Shown piece after piece: positions 32,759 to 59,129 of a stretch of DNA of 64,000 bases. The notes beneath the pieces are model-generated. The model was not told the origin of the DNA, did not search any database, and saw only the letters and a program-made list of their open reading frames with translations. How positions within the stretch are numbered: the stretch's first letter is position 1; every line of letters starts with the position of its first letter. The position numbers and the translations under genes were made by a program. Origin of the DNA: Sulfurimonas sp. (GTDB taxonomy: Bacteria > Campylobacterota > Campylobacteria > Campylobacterales > Sulfurimonadaceae); NCBI GenBank assembly GCA_021648285.1, contig JAKITC010000001.1, positions 1-64,000 on the forward strand, written 5' to 3'.

Positions 32759-34324
32759 ATGAAAATATTACTTTTAAATAATAATCCGGTAGTAAATAAG
32801 TTAGTAACTTTAAGTGCACAAAAGACTTCAGATGAGTTAGATGTAGCAGATAATCTTGAGGACGTAGAGTCAGGTAGCTATGATCTTTTAGTTATTGATG
32901 ATACTTTGTATAGTGAAGAGGTTATGCAAGAGTTAAACTCCAAAATAGAGTTTAAAAAATCTTTATATATATGTGCTAAAGATGCAGATACAGAAGAGGG
33001 TTTCACCTCAATACTAAAAAAACCTTTTTTACCAACTGATTTGGTTGAATTATTTGTTTCTTTGGCTAGCAGTTTAGATATTATTGAACTTGATAAAGAA
33101 GAAGTAAATTTAGATAACTTAAGTGAATCAGAAACAGAAACAGATACAGAAGCTGACGACTTTGATGAGTTAGACAGTGAACTGGATGAATTAGATAGCA
33201 TCGATGATGATATTAATGATTTTGATGAAGTGGAGGAACTTGACGAATTGGGTGATATTGAAGAAGAACTTGATGAAGATGAGTTAGACGAAGATGGGGC
33301 AGGTACAGAAGTTGAAGAACTGGAAGAAGCTGAAACAGGTGAAGTTGATTCAGAAGTGTCAGATAATGAACTTGAAGAAGAAGTAGATTTAGAGAGTCCA
33401 AGTGAATCTAGTGAAAGTGCAGAAGTTGATGAACATGATTCAATCCTCGATAAAGAGGACCTCCAAGAGGTACAGGAGCTATTAGAAGACGTGAATGAAG
33501 ACGAGTTAGGCGAAGCTGAAATAATTGATGAACTTGAAGAAGTAACTGAAGAGAGTTCGATTGAATCTAGTGAAAGTCCAGAAGTAAGCAGTGCACTTGA
33601 TGATTTTGATGTTGATGATACTGATTTAGAAGTAGACGCAGATGAACTAGAGCTTGGTGATTTTGATATTGATGATGCTGATTTAGAAACAGAACTAAAT
33701 GAACTGGATGAGTTAGAAGAAGTAACTAAAGATAGTCCAATTGAATCTGAGGTAGAGCTTGAGGCAGAACTAAATGGACTAGAAGAAGTAACTAAAGATA
33801 GTCCGATTGAATCTGAACAAGATACAGAAGTTGATAATCTTGAAGCTAATAACCTTGAAGTTGAAAATGTGAATGAAGACGAGTTGGACGAAGTTGCACT
33901 AGAGGATGAAGTAGAAGATTTAGAATTTCAAATACAGAGTGCGGTTGAAGAGTTAAGTGATGAGGATTTAGAAAGTGAAATTGATGAGGATATTTTATTA
34001 AACATTGACTCTTTAACAAGTAGAGATTTAAAAATTGCTATTGGCGAGGAAGTAACTGAAGAGACTCCTAGCGAATCTAGTCAAGATACAGAAGTTAATG
34101 AACTCGAAGAGTTCAGCGCAGAGCCTGAGCCTGAGCTAGCAGAAGAAGAGCCTGCAGTTGAAATAGAATTAGATGAAGAAGTAGCTGATGCTACTGACAT
34201 GTCAGATAACAACGACGGTGTAGAGTCCTTAAAAATATTATTGTCAGCACTTACAGATAAAAATGTAGCAGCTTCATTAAAAGGCATGAAAATAAATATA
34301 AATATAACTTTAGGCGATAAATAG
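32759..34324 (+). CDS. ChePep-like acidic protein: N-terminal degenerate receiver, long D/E/S-rich repeat region, conserved-looking C-terminal segment
   Basis: Receiver-like N-terminus (MKILLLNNNPVVNKLV...YDLLVIDDTLY...KKPFLPTDLV), acidic centre, C-terminus VESLKILLSALTDKNVAASLKGMKININITLGDK; sits between fliR and gmk-tatA-argS, as in Campylobacter jejuni. Confidence 0.75.
   Translation: MKILLLNNNPVVNKLVTLSAQKTSDELDVADNLEDVESGSYDLLVIDDTLYSEEVMQELNSKIEFKKSLYICAKDADTEEGFTSILKKPFLPTDLVELFVSLASSLDIIELDKEEVNLDNLSESETETDTEADDFDELDSELDELDSIDDDINDFDEVEELDELGDIEEELDEDELDEDGAGTEVEELEEAETGEVDSEVSDNELEEEVDLESPSESSESAEVDEHDSILDKEDLQEVQELLEDVNEDELGEAEIIDELEEVTEESSIESSESPEVSSALDDFDVDDTDLEVDADELELGDFDIDDADLETELNELDELEEVTKDSPIESEVELEAELNGLEEVTKDSPIESEQDTEVDNLEANNLEVENVNEDELDEVALEDEVEDLEFQIQSAVEELSDEDLESEIDEDILLNIDSLTSRDLKIAIGEEVTEETPSESSQDTEVNELEEFSAEPEPELAEEEPAVEIELDEEVADATDMSDNNDGVESLKILLSALTDKNVAASLKGMKININITLGDK
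33713..33816 (+). repeat. Tandem in-frame direct repeat (TTAGAAGAAGTAACTAAAGATAGTCCRATTGAATCTGA) x2
   Basis: 33713-33750 and 33779-33816 nearly identical (LEEVTKDSPIESE twice). Confidence 0.9.
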
Positions 34325-57914: not shown

Positions 57915-59129
57915 ATGTCAAGCATTGATCATAAAATCTCACAAGCCAAAGCCAAACTTTTAGTGGATTATCCATACTTTGGAACTTTGGCATCAAAGCT
58001 GGAACTTGTTGTAAATGATGACATAGAAGCTTTTAAAAGCAACGGAGTCAAACTGGAGTACAACAGTGATTACCTGCAAGCTTTAAAACTCTCGGAGATG
58101 GAGTTTGTATTTGCAAATGGTGCGATGCACGCCTCTTTGGCACATGAGCAGAGAAAGAACAACCGCAGTGGTTGGCTCTGGCAGATGGCAACAGACTACG
58201 CAATTAATGACATGTTGGTTGAAAATGGACTTGATTTACCGGATAGAGTACTATACAGAGTGCGTTTTAAAGGACTTTATGCTGAAGAGATTTATGCTGA
58301 GTTAAAGGAAATGAATTTAGACAACTTTACTGAATTTAGCGAAGTTTCCGAACTTAATGAGGTCGAAGACCTCAGCTCAGAGTCTAACTCAAATCAAAAA
58401 TTTCAAGAGCAAATCCAACAAGAAGTAAATTCAGAGAGTTCTACTGAATCCAGTCAAGGTTCAAAACTTAATAGACTCGAAGAGTCTAGCTTGTGCAGCA
58501 CCTCAGACCAAGATCTAGAAGAACAACTTTTTGGGGAATTTGCAAAAACAACACTTGAATCAGAATTTAAAAAAGGGGAAGCTCCTAAGACAATAGAGAG
58601 ATTTTTTAATCTTACATGTCAAGGCAAAATAGATTGGCGGGATGAGTTAAAAGTTGCTATTGACAGGTTTCATAAAGATGATTATGTTCTTATTCCGCCA
58701 AATAAGAAATTTCTATATGTAGGCATCTATCTGCCATCTTGTGTAAGCCAAAGATTCAAATTAGTTGTTGCCGTTGACAGTTCAGGTTCTGTTGATGAAG
58801 AGCTTTTGAATACATTTTTTAGTGAGTTAAATTTTCTTATGAATACCATTGCAAATTATCAGATAGATCTGTTGGTATGTGATGATAAGATTCAATCTCA
58901 CAAAACTTTTTACAGTGGAGATATTCTAGAGGCTGATTTAAAAGGTGGTGGAGCTACTGATTTTAGACCTGTATTTGAGTTCATAGAAGATACTTTACAA
59001 GACACAAAGCTGCTTTTATACTTTAGTGATTTAGCTGGAAAGTTTCCACATGTGAATCCATCCTATGATGTTAAGTGGGTAGTTCCAAGGGAGTTGGAAG
59101 TCCCTTTTGGAGAAGTTATAGTTTTATAA
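57915..59129 (+). CDS. VWA-like / DUF2201-type putative metallopeptidase protein with Ser/Glu-rich insert
   Basis: FVFANGAMHASLAHEQRKNNRSGWLWQMATDYAINDMLVENGL; KLVVAVDSSGSVDEELLNTFFSEL (MIDAS-like DxSGS); KGGGATDFRPVFEFI. Confidence 0.82.
   Translation: MSSIDHKISQAKAKLLVDYPYFGTLASKLELVVNDDIEAFKSNGVKLEYNSDYLQALKLSEMEFVFANGAMHASLAHEQRKNNRSGWLWQMATDYAINDMLVENGLDLPDRVLYRVRFKGLYAEEIYAELKEMNLDNFTEFSEVSELNEVEDLSSESNSNQKFQEQIQQEVNSESSTESSQGSKLNRLEESSLCSTSDQDLEEQLFGEFAKTTLESEFKKGEAPKTIERFFNLTCQGKIDWRDELKVAIDRFHKDDYVLIPPNKKFLYVGIYLPSCVSQRFKLVVAVDSSGSVDEELLNTFFSELNFLMNTIANYQIDLLVCDDKIQSHKTFYSGDILEADLKGGGATDFRPVFEFIEDTLQDTKLLLYFSDLAGKFPHVNPSYDVKWVVPRELEVPFGEVIVL
58319..58520 (+). repeat. In-frame repeat insert with two GAA-triloop hairpins, related to repeats in the ChePep-like gene
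   Basis: CTTAAT-GAGGTC-GAA-GACCTC-AGC (58359-58373) and CTTAAT-AGACTC-GAA-GAGTCT-AGC (58473-58487); compare GTTAAT-GAACTC-GAA-GAGTTC-AGC at 34100-34114. Confidence 0.75.

Follow-up and report, generated by a model that had tools for sequence, protein, structure and literature searches.

Why should three short hairpins with the same triloop lie in one reading frame of two unrelated protein-coding genes? The question is raised by the window, the 64,000-nucleotide stretch of Sulfurimonas sp. DNA that was analysed here, in which an earlier note made from the sequence alone had described three palindromes as copies of a dispersed, protein-tolerated element resembling the Rickettsia palindromic elements (RPEs). 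In-frame palindromic inserts have so far been viewed as particular to Rickettsia and Wolbachia and have been linked to reduced intracellular genomes. A family of such inserts in free-living, sulfur-oxidising members of the Campylobacterota would mean that small palindromic DNA invades proteins recurrently, and not in intracellular bacteria alone. In the open-access literature, outside which most subscription papers fall, no report of an element of this kind was found for Sulfurimonas or Campylobacterota. We consider it likely that the hairpins of the window belong to a family of approximately 81-nt, mobile-like palindromic elements that insert in protein genes in part of the genus Sulfurimonas.

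Hairpins of the window and anatomy of the element

The three hairpins were verified at the coordinates first given for them, in one frame and on the + strand. The first hairpin, T-GAACTC-GAA-GAGTTC-A (34099..34115, +), lies in the gene of a ChePep-like acidic protein (32759..34324, +; 521 aa, no Pfam hit) and folds as single-stranded DNA with −5.0 kcal/mol (z −5.2). The other two, T-GAGGTC-GAA-GACCTC-A (58358..58374, +) and T-AGACTC-GAA-GAGTCT-A (58472..58488, +), lie in the linker of a putative metallopeptidase (57915..59129, +; 404 aa) to which Pfam assigns DUF2201_N (PF13203) and the VWA-like DUF2201 (PF09967). Once the flanking T/A is counted, the stem is indeed 7 bp in all three, each with a GAA triloop, and the single-stranded DNA folding energies range from −4.4 to −5.8 kcal/mol (z −4.2 to −5.7).

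The DNA upstream of the hairpins can be aligned, as the earlier note claimed, but approximately 51 nt of it is the element itself rather than mere flank. A gapless alignment of the copies indicates an element of approximately 81 nt, or 27 codons, in which the hairpin forms the 3′ part. The extent originally proposed for the first copy, 34046-34120, is therefore corrected to approximately 34049..34129 (+; alignment A5); this copy encodes EVTEETPSESSQDTEVNELEEFSAEPE and scores 87 bits (E 7.5e-12) with the covariance model R2. The second and third copies occupy approximately 58308..58388 (+; R2 83 bits) and 58422..58502 (+; R2 87 bits). Weak covariance-model hits, all within acidic repeats and uncertain, were also obtained inside ChePep at 33380-33456, 33539-33616 and 33785-33865, and the acidic middle of this protein may be partly made of degenerate copies of the element.

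The layout of the element is GAA-GTAAAT...GAAGTTAAT, followed by the 7-bp stem with its GAA triloop and by AGCTTAGAGTCTAAC, and the consensus of the aligned copies reads GAA-GTAAATTTAGAGAGTTCTAGTGAATCTAGTCAAAGTTCAGAAGTTAAT-[stem]-GAA-[stem]-AGCTTAGAGTCTAAC. The distance from the first GAA to the stem is constant at 17 codons, and only one of the six reading frames of the consensus is open. Folding of the 81-nt consensus returned the 7-bp stem alone, with no terminal inverted repeats and no fold of the whole element. Among the 24 best copies, the first codon is GAA in 17, the loop is GAA in 21 and the closing pair is C-G in 23. Only one copy has a stem longer than 7 bp, with columns 50/68 complementary. 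The C-GAA-G loop is that of the extra-stable d(GCGAAGC) mini-hairpin, a class of single-stranded DNA structure. A search of Rfam gave no match, and thus no known RNA family.

Copies and host genes

In its own genome, the strict pattern TTAAT-N6-GAA-N6-AGC occurs four times; three occurrences are the palindromes of the window, and the fourth is non-palindromic. A relaxed core pattern, BLAST with the consensus and the covariance model retrieved additional copies, so the element is not confined to the three copies of the window. Seven strong copies are distributed across five genes of this genome (E<=5.1e-11, model R1), and of the four outside the window, two lie in a CheA-like kinase with Hpt, HATPase and CheW domains, and a small membrane protein and TatC each carry one at the C-terminus. 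Six of the own-genome copies were obtained by BLAST alone and form 33 of 36 possible pairs, with a query that itself held a paired stem. Fragments of the 5′ part that lack the hairpin occur in MoeA and in a response-regulator protein.

In some Sulfurimonas, the element resides in at least a dozen unrelated host genes, including essential ones. The hosts are ChePep, the DUF2201/VWA protein, the CheA-like kinase, TatC, MoeA, DnaX (gamma/tau), a BamD-like lipoprotein and PstC, together with Jag/KhpB-like RNA-binding proteins, hybrid kinases and response regulators; by their domain assignments, these hosts are unrelated. Each of the 24 best copies lies in the sense direction, and the reading frame is always the same; the 27 codons are free of stops in 22 copies, and the remaining two copies terminate the host gene. 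Our search found no clear intergenic or antisense copy, just decayed remnants behind stop codons. Because 11 of the 24 copies have an open antisense frame, the lack of antisense and intergenic copies is odd for a random inserter.

Several copies have unusual arrangements. A ChePep gene of genome G090 (L072, G090:C176, 1454-2260) carries tandem copies with a 93-nt period, three units of which are identical. In four genomes (L010, L058, L049, L084), the element forms the end of the same small membrane protein, and two of these copies contain stop codons and are decaying. The DnaX copy of G017 (L078, around 1040-1147) shows a partial tandem duplication (SSNESNQSTKVNKLEK / SSNESNQSTEVNRLEESK).

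Occupied and empty sites

Comparison of orthologues, which the earlier note had proposed as a check, identified sites with and without the insert in DnaX and MoeA. In DnaX of G073, a 27-codon (81-nt) insert, VNSESSNESKKSTKLNRFEESSLKSNN, is placed precisely between two Glu (GAA) codons, and the matching site of G017 is empty (AIE|EKIKQP), with the two GAA codons adjoining. With regard to target-site duplication, GAA flanks the insert on both sides, but the empty site already reads GAAGAA. A second DnaX site holds a copy in G047 and G017 and none in G073. In MoeA, 28 of 31 orthologues keep a loop of fixed length (within one residue), and in G000, G017 and G055 the 5′ part of the element replaces this loop and adds 9 aa. 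The linkers of CheA were also tried as an empty-site comparison; their length is variable in all species.

According to the alignment of the VWA proteins, the copy at 58422 is common to four genomes at the same site, and the copy at 58308 is found in the own genome alone among the four orthologues compared. A TatC copy is common to G000, G047 and G052; in G055 it is decayed behind a new stop, and in G032, the sister of G055, it is gone. Therefore, the insertions differ in age, are passed on vertically and are sometimes lost. With its many sequenced relatives, this lineage allows insertion, upkeep of the hairpin and loss to be dated separately at each site. Copies within a genome have a similarity of 0.678, compared with 0.685 for random or between-genome pairs and 0.761 for copies at the same site in different genomes. 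Since copies within a genome are not more alike, no recent burst or transposition is visible.

Pairing and conservation at the DNA level

Across the 24 copies, 97.6% of the stem cells pair. Double changes occur on five of the seven pairs (27 cells), and the observed covariation score was reached by 0 of 500 shuffles and approached by none of the slid structures; the covariation suggested by the earlier note is thus significant. We also used a null model in which amino acids were kept and codons were drawn from the usage of the window. Under this synonymous-codon null, 71.9 pairs (sd 4.4) are expected and 137 of 144 were observed, and 0.065 perfect hairpins are expected and 19 of 24 were observed; these counts include copies retrieved by a model for which pairing raises the score. 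Swapping of arms reached the observed pairing in 0 of 10,000 trials. Moreover, where pairing calls for them, the copies use CTC and TTC, rare codons that make up 6% of Leu and 12% of Phe, respectively.

Pairing has also been retained at individual sites. At the orthologous ChePep site, the two arms have changed jointly (GAACTC/GAGTTC vs GAGCTC/GAGCTC), and the same is true of the orthologous VWA site (AGACTC/GAGTCT vs AGACGC/GCGTCT). Because the arms covary at orthologous sites after insertion, the stem is kept and not just inherited. Some copies, such as those in MoeA and response regulators, have no hairpin.

When codons that differ by one base were compared between copies over the 51 nt that precede the stem, a synonymous share of 0.195 (bootstrap 0.161-0.225) was obtained, and 0.198 is expected at random. 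The share is 0.86 in whole TatC genes, 0.79 in MoeA, 0.68 in VWA and 0.40 in the acidic middle of ChePep. Third codon positions are conserved across copies as much as first and second positions. Since the synonymous share equals the random expectation, it is the DNA, and not the peptide, that is common to the copies. In the stem, G-T cells and A-C mismatches are equally rare (3 of 168 each). This equal rarity, together with the constant loop and the constant stem size, fits better with a DNA hairpin of defined size than with an RNA helix.

Distribution and subfamilies

Matches to model R2 at E<=1e-4 were found in 12 of 135 Sulfurimonas genomes, that is, in the own genome and 11 of 134 congeners. 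No match was found in 396 other genomes sampled from the whole phylum, for which few candidates were scored per genome and weak copies could thus have escaped detection. When 84,980 species were scanned with the pattern, 19 records were returned, none of them from Rickettsiales. The records that combine 5-6 of 6 arm pairs with the conserved upstream sequence are exclusively Sulfurimonas, and the Sulfurimonas records are NORP87, Ca. S. ponti, D96SM.bin.28, N3M-Bin_6 and S012_79_esom. A wider taxonomic range was considered and rejected: the 13 non-Sulfurimonas records pair at 2-4 of 6 positions, two of which are forced by the pattern, and have no upstream similarity, as expected of chance matches. 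Carriage by viruses was likewise rejected, because two IMG/VR pattern matches carry a different upstream sequence and are attributed to chance. On a TatC tree with many open forks, the positive genomes cluster (5 changes vs 9.3 with shuffled labels) and do not form one clade.

A context-free search with RRACTC-GAA-GAGTYY revealed a second subfamily (B) in G026 and G111, with the form GAAGTAAATGAAGTAAACGCTGATATACTTGATGATAGTACTAAGGATAAT-GGACTC-GAA-GAGTCC; in G026, ChePep carries two copies and an HTH_17-like protein a third. A possible third subfamily occurs in the TatC tail of G042 (...GATGGACTCAAAGAGTCC), with remnants in G116 and G077. The 17-codon distance from the first GAA to the stem is exact in subfamily B and in the G042 sequence despite their diverged middle.

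Interpretation and rival explanations

The proposal of a dispersed, protein-tolerated, RPE-like palindromic element is supported by the unrelated hosts, the empty and occupied sites, the covariation and the conservation at the nucleotide level. Such an element would spread as DNA, and the C-GAA-G loop suggests that spread may involve the formation or recognition of its hairpin in single-stranded DNA. Insertion just after in-frame GAA/GAT codons of acidic linkers could account both for tolerance and for the constant orientation, and inserts would survive where the reading frame stays intact. After insertion, the element would be a disordered stretch of linker that the host tolerates, without a shared function at the peptide level, inherited vertically and decaying in some lineages. 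The bolder version of this reading, in which the copies constitute a coding-only, genus-restricted class of mobile element with a single-stranded C-GAA-G hairpin as the mobile form, acidic-codon targeting and arms renewed to perfection at each insertion, is speculative and in our estimation rather unlikely. No mobilising gene was identified; Y1 transposases are absent from the positive genomes G032, G055 and G090, two of them complete single contigs. The Y1 transposase (RAYT) was rejected as the mobiliser because its presence is uncorrelated with the element.

The strongest competitor, which we regard as possible but clearly less probable than insertion of an element, is spread by ectopic recombination or gene conversion among GAA-rich acidic coding stretches, with a palindrome that is incidental and is perfected by template-switch (quasipalindrome) correction. 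Template switching is known to homogenise the arms of inverted repeats within coding DNA (PMC8604942) and to maintain hairpins (PMC8794818). The sense orientation of every copy, the prevalence of acidic linkers, the initial GAA in 17 of 24 copies, the tandem 93-nt copies in one ChePep and the MoeA loop, which is replaced rather than purely inserted into, are all in keeping with recombination. However, the 7-bp stem is constant and does not extend into columns 50/68, the GAA loop is constant with no inversion of the spacer, the 17-codon spacing is kept even in the diverged subfamilies B and C, and the 81-nt insertion in the conserved protein DnaX is clean. The element may serve as a clean test case for whether compensatory change in short stems results from selection or from template-switch correction.

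The remaining explanations place the selected function in RNA or protein, or dispense with function. An mRNA stem-loop that is bound by a regulator or nuclease and selected in a chemotaxis and cell-envelope regulon would explain the compensatory changes at the orthologous ChePep and VWA sites and the stable RNA fold of the window hairpins (−7 to −9.4 kcal/mol), but we consider it improbable, given that G-U cells are no more frequent than A-C mismatches, MoeA and the response regulator keep the 5′ part without the hairpin, the host functions are scattered and Rfam offers no match. Still less probable is a short peptide binding motif, EVNxLEExS, shared through convergence or domain shuffling. 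All copies do share one frame and encode an acidic, Ser/Glu-rich disordered peptide, and several hosts are polar or chemotaxis proteins; nevertheless, the random-like synonymous share and the equally conserved third positions led us to reject the motif, and the arm codons include the rare CTC and TTC demanded by pairing. The alternative named in the earlier note, codon bias of acidic low-complexity sequence, or chance, draws on the natural acidity of ChePep, which yields weak model hits. It is ruled out by the excess of perfect hairpins over the synonymous-codon null and by the arm-swap null, and the host loop of MoeA is not acidic low-complexity sequence in relatives; we assign it practically no probability.

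Comparison with known systems

RPEs (Ogata et al. 2000, 2002; Wolbachia 2005) measure 100-150 bp, fold end to end, have 12-bp terminal inverted repeats and are present in Rickettsia and Wolbachia, also between genes and in RNA genes (PMC2229807, PMC3767692). The Sulfurimonas element resembles them as a short, dispersed palindromic DNA that lies in frame in unrelated and often essential protein genes without breaking the frame, with insertions common to orthologues, the same site empty in orthologues of related species (DnaX, MoeA, TatC), several subfamilies and no known mobilising enzyme. A palindromic fold is kept between copies, although it is just a 17-nt hairpin near the 3′ end. Unlike RPEs, it comprises 81 nt, carries a single 7-bp C-GAA-G hairpin towards the 3′ end, has neither terminal inverted repeats nor a whole-element fold, is found sense in genes only with no intergenic copies, and belongs to Campylobacterota. 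We would therefore describe it as a protein-coding palindromic element that appears to work like RPEs and is not an RPE; the likeness is one of behaviour, and no sequence relation is claimed.

Other dispersed repeats are less similar. PARCELs share with the element a dispersed coding repeat with dyad symmetry of the DNA, but they are 25-residue tandem amphipathic repeats with conserved hydrophobic residues in genes of unassigned function from many phyla (PMC2996958), whereas the Sulfurimonas copies are mostly single inserts in conserved genes of one genus and encode an unconserved peptide. Pfam and NCBIfam detected no PARCEL domain (DUF285/TIGR02167) among the scanned hosts. REPs and GTAG-tagged palindromes with their RAYTs are also small palindromic repeats with a single-stranded DNA hairpin (PMC3733652); REPs are extragenic (PMC3733652), and the element does not track the Y1 transposase. 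The MITEs ERIC, NEMIS and YPAL are non-autonomous repeats with an open frame that can be fused in frame to coding sequences, but they mostly have terminal inverted repeats and are primarily intergenic (PMC2229807), neither of which applies here. In nematomorph mitochondria, perfect inverted repeats are likewise kept in coding sequence; unlike the Sulfurimonas element, they are long, encode conserved protein regions and are not dispersed inserts (PMC6649704).

The own genome also contains a separate, intergenic repeat (L006:996-1060; L018:180-235, minus; L024:330-395), in which a hairpin is followed by AGTSRCCACAGYGGYSC-AAGCG-RAGYAAAA.GGACTT and a second inverted repeat. It adjoins rRNA genes in two instances. 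Two of the three intergenic repeats contain C-GAA-G hairpins (GATTC-GAA-GAATC and GCTTC-GAA-GAAGC), and a relationship between this repeat and the coding element is possible.
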